A DNA stretch of 6,218 nt from Bryobacterales bacterium (GTDB taxonomy: Bacteria; Acidobacteriota; Terriglobia; Bryobacterales; Bryobacteraceae), in NCBI GenBank assembly GCA_003142355.1, contig PLMF01000377.1, positions 2,076 to 8,293 on the forward strand. Direction: 5' to 3'. Position 1 is the first letter of the stretch, and every line of letters starts with the position of its first letter. The notes beneath the pieces were generated by a model. It ran no database searches. It was not told where the DNA came from and was given only the letters and a program-made list of their open reading frames with translations. A program made the position numbers and the translations under genes. Below, in pieces: positions 1,130 through 6,218 of the stretch.

Positions 1130-2317
1130 ATGGCGGAAGACCAGCGCAAGCCAACCCCGCTCCTGGACGAGCTCGAAACTGGGCCCTGGCCCAGTTTCGT
1201 AACCGAAATCAAACGGGCGGCTGAAAATAGCCCGGCCTCCGCCGACCTGCTCGGGCTGCTGGAGCGCTCGTACCAGGATCGGAAGGGGCATTGGAAACAC
1301 GGCGGAATCGTGGGCGTGCGCGGGTACGGCAGCGGCGTGATCGGGCGCTACAACGACATCCCCGATGAGTTTCCGAACGTCGCCCAATTCCACACCTTGA
1401 GGGTCAACAACCCCTCGGGATGGTTCTACACCAGCGACGCGCTGCGCACGCTGGCGGACATCTGGGAGCGGCACGGCTCGGGGCTCACCAACCTGCACGG
1501 GGCCACCGGCGACATCATCTTATTAGGGGCCCGCACGGATGAGCTGGAGGGCACCTTCCAGGAACTGACCGCGGCCGGCTTCGACCTGGGCGGCTCCGGG
1601 TCGGCCATGCGGACACCCTCCTGCTGCGTGGGGCAGGCGCGCTGCGAGTGGGCCTGCTTCGACACCATGAAGTTCTCGAACGACCTCACGCAGGCTTACC
1701 AGGACGAGATGCACCGCCCGGCGTTCCCCTACAAGTTCAAGGTGAAGGCCTCCGGCTGTCCCAACGATTGCGTGGCCGCCATCGCCCGCGCGGACCTCTC
1801 GCTCATCGGCATCTGGAAGGACGACATCCGGCAGGACGACCGGGCGGTGGCGGAATACGCCGCCGGGGGCCTCGATATCGCGCGCGACGTGTGCGCCCGC
1901 TGCCCGGGCGGATGCATGGACTGGGACGGCGCGAAGCTGACCATCGACAACCGGGAGTGCAAGCGGTGCATGCACTGCATCAACGTCATGCCCAAGGCGC
2001 TGCGGCCGGGGGTGGAGCGCGGGGCGGCCATCCTCATCGGCGCCAAGGCCCCCATTGTGCAAGGGGCGCTGCTTTCCTCGGTGCTGGTGCCGTTCGTGCC
2101 CGAAGCGGAAATCGAGGGGACCGTGCGCGAGCTGCTGGCGCGCATCTGGGAGTTCTGGGACGAGTACGGCAAGAACCGCGAGCGCATCGGCGAGCTGATC
2201 CAGCGCGTGGGCATGGCCGCGTTCCTGGACGGCATCGGCTTGGAGCCGCGGCCGGAAATGGTGGCCTTCCCGCGCGACAACCCGTTCGTATTCTTCCAGA
2301 AGGAGGACGTGAAGTGA
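1130..2317 (+). CDS. dsrA: Dissimilatory sulfite reductase alpha subunit DsrA
   Basis: This is the 395-residue alpha subunit of the cytoplasmic DsrAB siroheme enzyme, which acts on sulfite/sulfide with DsrC as sulfur carrier. The N-terminal '[20 protein letters not shown]' (9-28) is a family signature and supports the ATG at 1130. '[21 protein letters not shown]' starts near residue 54. The siroheme and coupled [4Fe-4S] region shows C166-x5-C172 inside '[19 protein letters not shown]' (161-179) and C210-x3-C214 in 'GCPNDC'. An inserted ferredoxin domain supplies C258/C262 and C277-x2-C280-x2-C283, ending in the typical '[14 protein letters not shown]'. All ligands expected for a working enzyme are present. 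At 395 residues it is somewhat shorter than well-studied DsrA proteins (about 415-440). There is no clear ribosome-binding site before the start. It overlaps dsrB by 4 bases. Leu131-Leu132 are encoded by two successive TTA codons, unusual for this GC-rich gene. Confidence 0.97.
2301..2306 (+). promoter_or_regulatory. Consensus ribosome-binding site that fixes the dsrB start
   Basis: A perfect AGGAGG lies inside the last codons of dsrA, 7 bases before the GTG at 2314. It is the only consensus Shine-Dalgarno sequence I see in the operon. It selects GTG 2314 as the dsrB start over the much earlier in-frame ATG at 1648, which lies within dsrA. Confidence 0.8.
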
Positions 2318-3387
2318 CGCGCATCACCGACATCGGTCCTCCGCACTACGAGAAGTTTCTGCACCCCCTCATCAAGCGCAACTACGGCCACTGGCTGTAC
2401 CACGAAACGCTGGCGCCGGGGGTGCTGTGCCACGTGGCCGAATCGGGCGAGCGCATCTACACCGTGCGCGCGGGCTCGCCGCGGCTGCTGAGCGTGGCGA
2501 CGATCCGGCGCTTCGCGGACCTCGCCGATAAGTATTCGGGCGGCTACCTGCGGTTCACCAGCCGCCACAACATCGAGTTCCTGCTGGATGACCCGGCTAA
2601 CATCGAGCCGCTCAAACGCGAGCTGAGCGAAGCCGGCTTCCCGGTGGGCGGCACCAACAATGCGATCAGCAACGTGGTGCATACGCAGGGCTGGATCCAC
2701 TGCCACTCGGCCGCCACCGACGCCTCCGGCATCGTCAAGGCCCTGATGGACGAACTGCACCCGCACTTCACGCGTGAGGACCTCCCGGCCAAGCTGCGGG
2801 TGGCCGTGGCGTGCTGCGTGAACATGTGCGGCGCGGTGCACTGCTCGGACATCGCGATCCTGGGAATCCATCGCAAACCGCCGCAGGTCCGGCACGACGC
2901 GCTGCGCAAGGGCTGCGAGATCCCCACCCTGATCGCCTCCTGCCCGACGGGCGCCATACGGCCCGCGGTGGTGGACGGCAAGCGCACGGTGGACGTGGTC
3001 GAGGAGCAGTGCATGTACTGCTCCAACTGCTTCACGGTATGCGCCGCCATGCAGATGAACGACCCGGAGAACGACGGTCTCTCGATCTGGGTGGGCGGGA
3101 AGGTGAGCAACGCGCGCAGCGAGCCGAAGTTTTCGAAGCTGGCCATTCCGTTCCTGCCCAACAACCCGCCGCGGTGGCCGGAGGTGGTGGGCGCGGTGGC
3201 CAACATCGTGGACGTGTACGCCCGGCACGCCCGGCGCTACGAGCGGCTGGGCGAATGGACGGAGCGCGTGGGATGGCCGCGCTTCTTCGAGCTGACCGGC
3301 ATCCCGTTCACGCGCTACCATATCGACGATTTCCGGTACGCGGGTCTGAGCTACGCGCGCTCGACGCACATGCGGTTGCGGCCATGA
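2314..3387 (+). CDS. dsrB: Dissimilatory sulfite reductase beta subunit DsrB
   Basis: This is the 357-residue partner of DsrA in the alpha2-beta2 sulfite reductase. It starts at GTG, overlapping the dsrA stop in GTGA. The reading frame stays open for several hundred bases upstream, but that part is a shadow of dsrA; homology to DsrB begins at '[17 protein letters not shown]'. Visible signatures are '[12 protein letters not shown]' (70-81), '[18 protein letters not shown]' (122-139, with C130), and the siroheme-Fe-S motif '[19 protein letters not shown]' (166-184; C168-x3-C172). The ferredoxin domain has C210 in 'SCPTGAIRP' and C233-x2-C236-x2-C239-x3-C243. The C-terminal half, 'PRWPEVV...' onward, is also typical. 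No key cysteine is missing. Stoichiometric production with DsrA is favoured by the overlap. No dsrD follows, although dsrD often does so in classical sulfate reducers; a dsrL-like gene takes that place. Confidence 0.97.
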
Positions 3388-4325
3388 TGGCGGGACTCTT
3401 TAAACCGGTGAAGAAGCCGGTGATCCGGCGTCTGGCGGCGCAGGGCGGCGATATCGGCCCCTACCGGCCGCGGTATGCCCCCAAGACGGCGCCGTGCACC
3501 GCCGCGTGCCCGAGCGCGGGAGATATCCGCGGCTGGCTGATGGCGGTGGCCGATGGCGGGGCGCTCGAATCCGCCTGGGAGAAGATCGCCGCGCGCAACC
3601 CGTTCCCCTCCGTCTGCGGCAGGGTCTGCCCGGCCGATTGCGAAGCGGCCTGCCCGCGGGAAGCCAAGGACGGCGCGGTGGCCATTCGCGCTTTGGAGAG
3701 GCACCTCGGCGATTTGGCCCTCGAGGGCGGGCTGGCGCTTGCCGCCGCCGCGGCACCGCGGGGCGAAGTGGCCGTGGCGGGCGCTGGTCCGGCGGGCCTC
3801 TCGTGCGCGTATCAACTCGCTCGGCGGGGATGGCGCGTCACGGTGTTCGATGCGGCGGCGCCAGGGGGTTTCCTGCGCTCTCTGCCGGGGCTGCCGGTGG
3901 AGATCCTGGACCGCGAGATCGCCCGCATCACGGCGCTGGGCGTCACGCTGCGCCCGGACCCCGCACCCGACGATGTCGTCTTTACCGATCCCGGCGGCAC
4001 GCTCGCCAGCCTGCCCCAACTGATCGCCAGTGGGGCCGACGCACGACCCCCTGGTCGCGCTATTGCGGACCGCATCAAGTCGGCTTGGTACGTAGAAGCG
4101 CCGCGGCACGAACAGATTTTGAATGAAGCCGACGCCCTGGCCGAAGCTCGCCGCTGCTTCGCTTGCGGCACCTGCATGGGGTGCGGCAATTGCTGGATGT
4201 ACTGCGCCAACGGCTGCTTCGAGAAGACTCCCAAGGGAAACCGTTTCAAACTCAAGCTGGAGCTGTGCCACGGGTGCAGGCGCTGCGCGGAAGAGTGCCC
4301 CTCCGGCTTTATCGACATGCTGTAA
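3384..4325 (+). CDS. Shortened DsrL-like iron-sulfur protein lacking the central NAD(P)H-binding domain
   Basis: This 313-residue protein resembles DsrL, a relative of the glutamate synthase small subunit that passes electrons between NAD(P)H and DsrAB. Full DsrL proteins are roughly twice as long. Residues ~25-112 form the N-terminal double-cluster domain (C38, C42, then C78-x3-C82-x3-C86-x3-C90 in '[18 protein letters not shown]'). Residues 129-156 are a Rossmann strand-turn-helix with 'GAGPAG' (133-138) ending in D156 rather than the usual E. '[19 protein letters not shown]' (161-179) is a degraded form of the family's 'GG-LRYGIP-YRLP-LDREI'. After residue ~198 the sequence jumps to what looks like the last helix of the FAD domain ('[17 protein letters not shown]'), so the NAD(P)H domain is absent. 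Residues 256-313 carry two more [4Fe-4S] sites (C264/C267/C270/C274, preceded by C258 and C261, and C295/C298/C301/C305). It begins at ATG 3384 (ATGA overlap with dsrB) or the adjacent ATG 3387. Flavin binding is uncertain. Confidence 0.85.
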
Positions 4326-4329
4326 GCAT

Positions 4330-4647
4330 ATGCCTACATACGAACACGACGGACGCGTTTACGAGGTGGATGAGGACGGCTTCCTTCAGGAGCCGGACCT
4401 GTGGAACGAAACCGCGGCCCGCGATTTCGCGGCTGCGGAGGACGTGCCGGAGATGACCGAAGCGCACTGGGTCGTCGTCAACTACCTGCGCAACTACTAC
4501 CTGCAGTTCGGCATCGCCCCCATGGTCCGCAAGGTCGTCAAGGAGACCGGCTTCAAGCTCACTCGAATCTACGAGCTGTTCCCCTCGGGCCCGGCCAAGG
4601 GCGCGTGCAAGGTGGCCGGACTGCCCAAGCCCACCGGCTGCGTGTAG
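4330..4647 (+). CDS. dsrC: Sulfur-carrier protein DsrC (TusE/DsrC family)
   Basis: A 105-residue cytoplasmic sulfur carrier that inserts its flexible C-terminal arm into DsrAB and receives or delivers sulfur as a trisulfide. The start ATG is 4 bases after the dsrL-like stop and gives the usual family length; the longer open frame upstream is a shadow. 'WVVVNYLRNYYLQFGIAPMV' (47-66) and 'IYELFPSGPAKGACKVAGLP' (80-99) are family signatures. Both redox cysteines are present at C93 and the penultimate C104, spaced C-x10-C, which marks a true DsrC rather than TusE or the single-Cys homologues. Its place between dsrAB and dsrMK fits its role as shared substrate of both complexes; in many organisms dsrC is unlinked. 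No clear ribosome-binding site is visible, so translational coupling to the preceding gene is likely. Confidence 0.96.
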   Translation: MPTYEHDGRVYEVDEDGFLQEPDLWNETAARDFAAAEDVPEMTEAHWVVVNYLRNYYLQFGIAPMVRKVVKETGFKLTRIYELFPSGPAKGACKVAGLPKPTGCV

Positions 4648-4651
4648 TGCC

Positions 4652-5350
4652 ATGATCGCCGCCGCCATCGCGTACCTCGGCCTCGCGATTTTCGTCGCGG
4701 GCATGGTGTGGCGCGTGGTGACGTGGGCGCGCGCGCCGGCGCCGTTCCCCATCGCGCTCACCTGCGGGCAGCAGAAGTCGCTCGAAGGCATTCGCGCGGC
4801 GTGGCTCGAGAATCCGTGGACGCGCGCGGGCGCGGCCTGCCGGGTGGCGCTCGAGGCGCTGCTGTTTCGCTCGCTGTGGCGGAATTCGCGCGCCGAATTG
4901 CTGGCGGGGCCGCGCTTCGTGTATCGTCGAGACCGCTGGCTGTGGGGCGGAGCGCTGCTGTTCCATGGCTGTCTTTTGTGGGTATTGGTGGGGCACGTGC
5001 GGTTGTTCCTCGATCGGGCGGTGGCGGGGCCGGCCAACCGGCTGGTGGACGCGGGGCTGCTGGCGGGGCTGGCGTTTCTGTTGCTGCGGCGGGTGCTCGA
5101 CGGGCGCCTGCGCTACGCGACCCTGGCGGCCGATTACGTGCCACTGGCGCTGCTGGCGACGGCGGGCTCATCGGGGGTTTTGATGCGCTGGTGGAGCCAC
5201 GCGGACGCGGGCCTGCTCTTCTACATTCACGTGGCTGCCGCCAGCGCGCTGGCCGCCTCCATTCCGTTCACCAAGTTGTCGCACATGGCGGGGATGTTTT
5301 TCAGCCCCACGCACAACGAACCAAGCCGTTCGCGCGCGGAGCGCCAGTAA
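4652..5350 (+). CDS. dsrM: DsrM, membrane heme b subunit of the DsrMK(JOP) complex (NarI-like)
   Basis: A 232-residue integral membrane protein that would hold two hemes b and exchange electrons between the quinone pool and cytoplasmic DsrK. Hydrophobic segments lie at about 2-25, 97-119, 131-149, 162-179 and 186-207. Candidate heme-ligand histidines are H105 and H115 in the second segment ('LLFHGCLLWVLVGHVRLF') and H193 and H211 around the fifth. The ending 'FTKLSHMAGMFFSPT' (206-220) is the DsrM signature. The stretch between 'GVLMRWW' and 'FYIHV' is only about 10 residues, whereas DsrM proteins as I recall them have a clearly longer loop there, so this is a compact version. The ATG is 4 bases after the dsrC stop; the gene ends 2 bases before dsrK. 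Identification is strong from both sequence and context. Confidence 0.93.
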   Translation: MIAAAIAYLGLAIFVAGMVWRVVTWARAPAPFPIALTCGQQKSLEGIRAAWLENPWTRAGAACRVALEALLFRSLWRNSRAELLAGPRFVYRRDRWLWGGALLFHGCLLWVLVGHVRLFLDRAVAGPANRLVDAGLLAGLAFLLLRRVLDGRLRYATLAADYVPLALLATAGSSGVLMRWWSHADAGLLFYIHVAAASALAASIPFTKLSHMAGMFFSPTHNEPSRSRAERQ

Positions 5351-5352
5351 CC

Positions 5353-6218
5353 ATGCCATGGCCCGGTCCCCCGGTCGAATTCCGCAAAGGAACTTACTCG
5401 CGCGCCGGCGCGGCCAAACACGTCAAGTACCTGGGGCTGCCCAATCCGCGCGACTGGCAACCCGCCGACGCGGATTGGAAGCTTCCCGAGAACTGGCGTG
5501 AGATCGTGCTCGAGGGGATGCGCGAGCGTCTGGAAAAGTACCGGTCGTTCCGGCTGTTCATGGACATCTGCGTGCGATGCGGCGCGTGCGCCGACAAGTG
5601 CCATTTCTATCTGGGCACGGGCGACCCCAGGAACATGCCGGTGCTGCGCGCCGAACTGCTCCGCTCGGTCTACCGCCGCTACTTCACGGCCGCCGGGCGC
5701 GCGCTGGGCAGGCTCGCCGGCGCGCGCGACCTGACGGTGGAGGTGCTCAAGGAGTGGTTCTACTACTTCTACCAGTGCACCGAGTGCCGGCGCTGCGCGG
5801 TGTATTGCCCCTTCGGCATCGATACCGCCGAAGTCACGATGGTGGCGCGCGAGCTATTGAACCTGGTGGGGTGCAACATCAACTGGATTGTGGAACCCGC
5901 GGCCAATTGCCAGCGCACCGGCAACCATCTGGGCATCGAGCCGCGCGGGATCGAGGACACGCTGGATTTCGCGGTAGATGAAATCGAGGAGCTGACCGGC
6001 ATCCGGGTGGAAGCGCCCATCAACCGCAAAGGCGCCGAGATTCTGTTCATCGCGCCCTCGGCCGATTTCTACGGCACGCCGCATTACTACACGCTGCTCG
6101 GCTACCTGATGGTGTTGCACGAAGCGCAGGTGGATTACACCTTCAGCTCGTACGCTTCCGAGGGCGGCAACTTCGGCATGTTCGTCTCCCACGAGCTGAT
6201 GCAGCGGCTCAACGCCAA
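5353..6218 (+). CDS. dsrK: DsrK, Fe-S catalytic subunit of DsrMK(JOP), HdrD-like (3' end outside window)
   Basis: The first 288 residues of a cytoplasmic HdrD-like protein thought to reduce the DsrC trisulfide, or act in reverse, with electrons from DsrM. The frame is open from ATG 5353 to the window edge. The N-terminal portion includes 'KHVKYLGLPNPRDW' and 'DWKLPENW', known from DsrK. Two classical [4Fe-4S] motifs follow: C73-x2-C76-x2-C79-x3-C83 ('ICVRCGACADKC') and C142-x2-C145-x2-C148-x3-C152-P ('CTECRRCAVYCPFGID'). 'NCQRTGNHLGIEPRGIEDT' starts at residue 185. The cysteine-rich CCG domain that binds the special catalytic cluster is expected beyond the window. A weak GGAG (5338-5341) lies 11 bases before the ATG. 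Family members are about 530-550 residues, so roughly half is missing here. Confidence 0.95.
   Translation, partial: MPWPGPPVEFRKGTYSRAGAAKHVKYLGLPNPRDWQPADADWKLPENWREIVLEGMRERLEKYRSFRLFMDICVRCGACADKCHFYLGTGDPRNMPVLRAELLRSVYRRYFTAAGRALGRLAGARDLTVEVLKEWFYYFYQCTECRRCAVYCPFGIDTAEVTMVARELLNLVGCNINWIVEPAANCQRTGNHLGIEPRGIEDTLDFAVDEIEELTGIRVEAPINRKGAEILFIAPSADFYGTPHYYTLLGYLMVLHEAQVDYTFSSYASEGGNFGMFVSHELMQRLNA

Follow-up and report, generated by a model that had tools for sequence, protein, structure and literature searches.

The window analyzed here is a stretch of 6,218 nucleotides from a Bryobacterales bacterium (GenBank assembly GCA_003142355.1, contig PLMF01000377.1, positions 2,076 to 8,293 of the forward strand). 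It harbors a dsr operon of acidobacterial type, whose genes lie on the plus strand in the order dsrA-dsrB-short dsrL-dsrC-dsrM-dsrK and either share four bases with their neighbor or are separated by two to four bases. The subject of this study is the third gene, which encodes a DsrL-like protein devoid of a NAD(P)H domain. Its ATG overlaps the dsrB stop codon and dsrC begins at position 4330. Its neighbors are thus dsrB and dsrC, and no linkage to pyruvate/ketoisovalerate:ferredoxin oxidoreductase genes is present. All features are compiled in Table 1.

Table 1. Genes of the dsr operon in the window and parts of the short DsrL-like protein.
Feature	Position in window	Strand	Remarks
dsrA	1130..2317	+	TIGR02064, 548.6 bits
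dsrB	2314..3387	+	TIGR02066, 507.2 bits
Short DsrL-like gene	3384..4325	+	single open frame, 313 residues, without NAD(P)H domain
GltD-type N-terminal Fe-S domain, residues ~36-114	3489..3725	+	Cys 38, 42, 82, 86, 90 and Arg 92 invariant in 55/55 short forms
Residual FAD-type Rossmann half, residues ~127-196	3762..3971	+	GAGPAG 133-138, D156, PGGFLR 160-165
Deletion junction, residues ~197-219	3972..4040	+	NAD(P)H domain gone, as are the FAD GxG/GGD segments
C-terminal twin [4Fe-4S] ferredoxin	4155..4322	+	Cys 258, 261, 264, 267, 270, 274, 295, 298, 301, 305
dsrC	4330..4647	+	105 residues, both C-terminal cysteines (93, 104) present; PF04358, TIGR03342
dsrM, short (232 residues)	4652..5350	+	NF038037, 208.2 bits, under the cut-off of 300
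dsrK, truncated by the window end	5353..6216	+	NF045796, 395.4 bits, cut-off 400

An earlier inspection of the letters alone (the sequence-only reading) had described one open frame with a GltD-type Fe-S domain, a GAGPAG fold and a C-terminal twin-cluster ferredoxin. Pfam agrees with this description: Fer4_20 matches residues 34-114 (E 2.7e-18), Rossmann-type FAD/NAD models match at approximately 128-165, and dicluster ferredoxin models at approximately 263-312. The abrupt loss of sequence suspected near residue 198 is found as well, as homology to GltD and Nfn stops at approximately residue 190-194 and is followed by the C-terminal ferredoxin. At the junction (~197-219), a short strand and a helix aligning to the final part of the FAD domain of GltD are retained, and some 40 residues separate the Rossmann half, whose last helix runs to 218, from Cys 258, the first cysteine of the ferredoxin. 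D156 stands after strand 2, TDPGG occupies residues 201-205, and the motifs YRR, GGGDTA and GGD are absent. The best NCBIfam model is NF009410 (PRK12771, NAD(P)-binding protein) with 233.1 bits, below its curated cut-off of 516. An intact NAD(P)H fold is not predicted: the structure model has no NAD(P)H domain, and alignment and predicted fold agree on its loss.

The gap is not confined to this contig. In a protein search, 7,999 candidates were scored and 365 relatives were obtained at E ≤ 1e-3. The best 120 of these 365 comprise 51 proteins of 295-365 residues, 26 of 395-411 and 42 of 535-548, besides a single protein of 413 residues (L144/P0027), which is a short DsrL bearing additional residues ahead of the Rossmann half. 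This search took only proteins of 0.55-1.75 times the query length, which excludes full forms of about 553 residues; some of these were reached by a second, profile search, giving a combined set of 196 proteins, 63 of them short. A contig scan, which yielded at least 80 loci, identified the same operon in Bryobacterales fen_178 (L001), with a 313-residue DsrL of 83% identity (tblastn; 85% over aligned residues). Homologues of about 310 residues with the same gap, for which the sequence-only reading had suggested a search, thus occur in many relatives, and the closest ones share the gap rather than being full-length.

At the family level, a DsrL match (E ≤ 1e-75) is present in 17 of 237 genomes of the Bryobacterales family of G001, the nearest named metagenome-assembled genome (MAG). 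Four of these are short (G001, G561, G621, G560) and share the operon place of dsrL, 11 are full, and two run into contig ends. The family to which the Acidobacteriaceae MAG G002 belongs has matches in 19 of 300 genomes, 12 of a "mid" form (395-402 residues) and seven full; the mid form (~397 residues) likewise has no NAD(P)H domain. A phylum-wide sample gave matches in 27 of 396 genomes, some of which cover the front part alone and are perhaps not DsrL. We inspected 55 loci, namely five short (window included), 13 mid, 33 full and four cut. The gene order dsrA-B-L-C-M-K is kept wherever contigs extend, at times with small genes in between. Two full-length loci, L180 and L181, are without dsr neighbors and may be other relatives.

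The ratio of nonsynonymous to synonymous substitution rates (dN/dS), determined by NG86, is 0.16-0.20 for dsrL in five of five pairs of short-clade genes; YN00 ratios are lower, with no value for several pairs. The same comparison gives 0.08-0.10 for dsrA, 0.06-0.14 for dsrB and 0.09-0.23 for dsrC. Short dsrL is under purifying selection. Within the gene, comparison of the window with L001 and L142, respectively, reveals ratios of 0.23 and 0.28 for the N-terminal Fe-S domain, 0.13 and 0.14 for the residual Rossmann half (residues 121-196), 0.32 and 0.36 for linker plus junction, and 0.16 and 0.08 for the ferredoxin. The low ratio of the Rossmann half indicates that this half-domain is maintained and not drifting, which is compatible with a kept nucleotide and also with a kept cluster scaffold. 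A loss that is internal and in frame relative to full-length DsrL could in principle stem from gene decay or from faulty assembly. However, the 63 short proteins among the 196, the four genomes of one family with the same operon place, the dN/dS values and the grouping of short forms in one supported clade (100/98) make this scarcely credible. An isolated deletion or assembly error is rejected because relatives share the gap, and a pseudogene is rejected by dN/dS. The view that the gene encodes a distinct form and is not dead therefore stands.

The comparison of motifs kept and lost covers 168 distinct aligned proteins, of which 55 are short, 39 mid and 74 full; 51 derive from the loci and the others from the protein search. 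Cys is preserved at five N-terminal and ten C-terminal positions in all rows, save one short row gapped in the ferredoxin, so the Fe-S ends are indeed retained as proposed; the N-terminal C78 is variable in every class. Arg 92 is identical in 55/55 short and 74/74 full forms. In reductive-type DsrL-2, one of the Cys residues that ligate the distal N-terminal cluster is replaced by an Arg, according to passages of Loffler et al. 2020 (PMC7596348), and Arg 92 may correspond to this Arg. The first ferredoxin motif reads CMxCGNCW in 59 of 63 short and CMDCExCW in 105 of 107 full proteins; with CMGCGNCW, the window protein bears the signature of the short clade.

The nucleotide sites behave differently from the cluster ligands. 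GGGDTA and YRR are missing from 94/94 truncated forms, the YRR position being a gap in 55/55 short ones. A gap at YRR also occurs in DsrLs of full length (L173, L176, L178, P0069, P0075 and others), many of which have an altered GGGDTA; it was counted in 3 of 33 full loci, in 26 of the 74 full proteins of the alignment, a set limited in length, and in 0 of 65 proteins of at least 549 residues. As for the putative FAD-binding motifs, known from the GltD/DPD family, GGD is present in 74/74 full, 3/39 mid and 0/55 short forms, and the Arg of IPxxR has the same distribution. The acidic residue after strand 2 is Glu in 73/74 full forms; among mid and short forms it is Asp in 26/39 and 33/55, respectively. 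The GxG loop is gone in the short clade, GAGPAG or a near variant is retained in most proteins of the alignment, and the short relatives P0157, P0072 and P0033 additionally lack the acidic residue and the GG loop. Judged by these motifs, the FAD site is eroded stepwise from full via mid to short forms, and flavin is probably lost or weakly bound in the short clade. Of the signs of a worn FAD site named by the sequence-only reading, D156 is not a specific one, as Asp also predominates in mid forms; the absent GGD weighs more, as does the lost Arg of IPxxR.

Since the cluster ligands are kept and the NAD(P) site is missing, an NADP(H) donor cannot be used in the known way. The protein combines the lack of a NAD(P)H domain and a half FAD fold stripped of most of its motifs with intact Fe-S ligands, a fixed place between dsrB and dsrC and purifying selection. 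We lean towards the interpretation that it descends from DsrL-2 and is part of a Dsr system of reductive type, as a subunit that has given up pyridine-nucleotide chemistry and docks on DsrAB as an Fe-S wire; docking and wire function are what we infer beyond these observations. A relay from a one-electron donor to DsrAB is the economical reading. For the two-electron step in which the DsrC trisulfide is made, one pair of clusters would take up electrons from a one-electron donor of low potential, in the simplest case reduced ferredoxin, otherwise a partner in the membrane or one resembling heterodisulfide reductase, and the other pair would hand them to the siroheme enzyme.

Several points weigh against this interpretation. 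The structure model of short DsrL has a mean predicted local distance difference test score of 73.5 and is low in parts of the ferredoxin. Ferredoxin as donor is hypothetical, and contact with DsrAB is presumed from the operon place and from work on Allochromatium vinosum. According to passages of Loffler et al. 2020 (PMC7596348), NADH oxidation by DsrL in that organism and electron transfer from NADH to sulfite are independent of the iron-sulfur clusters; for A. vinosum DsrL, this tells against a wire formed by the clusters. If this independence holds, the clusters may be there for another direction or for a donor that is not NADH, and short DsrL would be the form keeping just that route. Furthermore, the glycine loop survives in most short forms, and the Rossmann half is more constrained than the N-terminal Fe-S domain, about as strongly as the ferredoxin, which may point to binding of FAD or another nucleotide. 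The latter constraint, together with the reported Fe-S independence, raises the standing of a different explanation, in which FAD or another flavin is kept in the half fold and the protein acts as a NAD(P)H-free flavo-Fe-S adaptor like HdrA, passing or splitting electrons between two Fe-S modules. Given that the short clade has lost GGD, the Arg of IPxxR and the GxG loop, and three of its members the acidic residue and GG loop too, we consider this adaptor rather unlikely, though worth keeping in mind.

Two further explanations are improbable in our view. The NAD(P)H module might be supplied in trans by a separate oxidoreductase docking on short DsrL, such that the pathway would still start from NAD(P)H. 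The G001 genome does contain five further matches to the GltD-type part; however, these cover the Fe-S and first Rossmann parts only, as expected of general GltD-family members, and the portion of the operon within the window includes no such gene. Equally hard to credit is a protein that carries electrons no longer and serves DsrAB or DsrC in structure or assembly. The lost nucleotide sites would suit such a role, but the Fe-S ligands checked are nearly invariant across diverged short forms, and a scaffold has no obvious need of them. The Fe-S wire remains our preferred interpretation.

The genomes differ in their metabolic setting. aprA is present in 0 of 4 short, 6 of 13 mid and 26 of 32 full genomes, whose completeness is not stated; sat is present in 0 of 4, in the same six of 13, and in 28 of 32. 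As both genes are missing from all four, the short-form genomes look like sulfite users and not sulfate users. Sulfite-only gene sets have been described in peat acidobacteria, according to passages of Hausmann et al. 2018 (PMC6018796). Across all truncated forms, aprA occurs in 6 of 17 genomes as against 26 of 32 full ones (Fisher p 0.0036), a comparison with just three phylogenetically independent pairs, for which a sign test cannot reach 0.05. The tie between truncation and loss of sulfate activation is thus a lead rather than a result.

The history of the truncated forms was traced on two trees. In a DsrAB tree built from 44 operons, all short forms fall in one clade (97/94), the mid forms appear at three places among full-length operons, and approximately unbiased (AU) tests reject a single mid clade (p 4.3e-4) as well as a single mid plus short clade (p 6.6e-56). 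In the DsrL tree (76 proteins, 276 shared columns, deleted region excluded), short (100/98) and mid (100/99) forms each lie on one side of a branch, as does a third class of mid forms without NAD(P) domain in which GGD is kept (100/94), and which groups with the short forms (96/92). Here, all truncated forms as one clade are not rejected (AU p 0.23). The conflict between both trees implies several domain losses or exchange of dsrL between operons; we claim no number of independent losses and do not regard a single origin of all truncated forms as settled. For the Acidobacteriaceae loci L150-L160 and L175, the disagreement of the trees hints that dsrL has moved from one dsr operon to another.

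A wider scenario can be put forward tentatively, and we would not call it probable: Acidobacteriota may have turned DsrL, a NADPH:DsrAB oxidoreductase, stepwise and perhaps repeatedly into a pure Fe-S relay. In lineages that abandoned sulfate activation, sulfite respiration would thus have switched from NADPH to a donor in the membrane or at the level of ferredoxin. The YRR clamp for NADP would have been lost first, in proteins still full-length; the NAD(P)H domain would then have been excised, and the FAD site would have eroded last, with the Fe-S ligands untouched throughout.

Further features of the operons may be recorded. Upstream of dsrA, L001 carries a DsrK-like Fe-S/CCG protein (L001:4443-6734), probably DsrK2, where the window has an ADOP-family permease. 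The window DsrM of 232 residues compares with 328-331 residues in three full-DsrL operons (L004, L009, L011); its His motifs are apparently kept, by eye. An RsbRD_N gene, matched in 45 of 55 loci, stands between dsrC and dsrM in related operons and is missing there in the window (4647-4652) and in its three nearest relatives L001, L142 and L144. PF08679 (DsrD) matched in 0 of 49 genomes, but also in 0 of 14 controls, and is therefore uninformative. Small, mutually related, conserved open reading frames of DsrD size, which PF08679 does not recognize, occur in 30 of 55 loci (e.g., L011:3439-3687, L001:2920-3180); two of them had no Pfam or NCBIfam match, and the one compared with the PDB had no convincing match. 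An open reading frame with weak rubrerythrin likeness lies near dsrL (L011:3736-4203) in 17 of 33 full, 0 of 18 truncated and 1 of 4 cut loci.

To our knowledge, it is not settled which physiological donor supplies DsrAB with electrons in sulfite and sulfate reducers, and DsrL-2 is a leading candidate for coupling to NADPH. With a conserved DsrL devoid of a NAD(P)H site, this view would fail for a set of acidobacteria, and those with the short form probably drive sulfite reduction from an electron source other than NADPH. The natural series of intact, NAD(P)-less and FAD-eroded proteins would help to separate the roles of the Fe-S modules and nucleotide sites of DsrL for DsrAB. It is also a warning that such proteins can be overlooked or misnamed when searches and domain criteria derive from full-length DsrL.

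In passages of acidobacterial MAG papers, DsrL-2 is cited as NAD(P)H oxidoreductase for DsrAB (PMC8528874, PMC10564751). Among listings and passages of open-licence PMC papers, we found no report of a NAD(P)-less DsrL; passages of Hausmann et al. 2018 describe seven acidobacterial DsrLs as shorter (PMC6018796), and passages of Diao et al. 2023 mark some published DsrLs as undetected by their profile (PMC10591310). Loffler et al. 2020 (PMC7596348), in the passages considered here, characterize A. vinosum DsrL as a partner of DsrAB with four [4Fe-4S] clusters and one FAD, and count as DsrL only proteins with all domains, the NAD(P) domain included. Measured against these definitions, the short form agrees in that dsrAB is present in the organism, the gene is complete, linkage to pyruvate/ketoisovalerate:ferredoxin oxidoreductase is absent, and an N-terminal two-[4Fe-4S] domain and a C-terminal two-[4Fe-4S] ferredoxin are predicted (Fer4_20, Fer4_7, conserved cysteines). 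It deviates in the FAD Rossmann domain with embedded NAD(P) Rossmann domain, of which the former is partial and the latter absent, and in the linker before the C-terminal ferredoxin, of about 40 instead of about 100 residues. The YRR motif in the NADP site, which defines DsrL-2, is missing as well. The same passages report that D. amilsii DsrL-2 is active with NADP(H) and not NAD(H), which is related to YRR, and that all sequences of group DsrL-2 have this motif save those of two Candidatus genera. Going by its domains, the short form is a DsrL-derived variant and not a DsrL in the published sense.

Among known systems, HdrA-like chains appear in the 50 fold matches listed for the mid-class model alone, well below the GltD/Nfn matches. 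HdrA is an Fe-S flavoprotein with a thioredoxin-reductase-like fold that is not known to use pyridine nucleotides; its cluster arrangement and partners differ from those of short DsrL. GltD, NfnB (NfnL), NfnABC and StnABC, the best matches among solved structures, share the N-terminal Fe-S domain and the FAD fold, but at the site of the gap in the short form they carry a NAD(P)H domain. With the NADPH-active DsrL-2 of Desulfurella amilsii and relatives, the short form has in common the place beside dsrAB and dsrC and the Fe-S modules at both ends, and shared ancestry is evident from 42 full-length forms among the matches listed, whose identity is 48-57% across 53-69% of the query. It differs from DsrL-2 in the absence of the NAD(P) domain and YRR, the loss of most FAD motifs, its length (313 versus about 553 residues) and its ferredoxin motif, CMxCGNCW instead of CMDCExCW.
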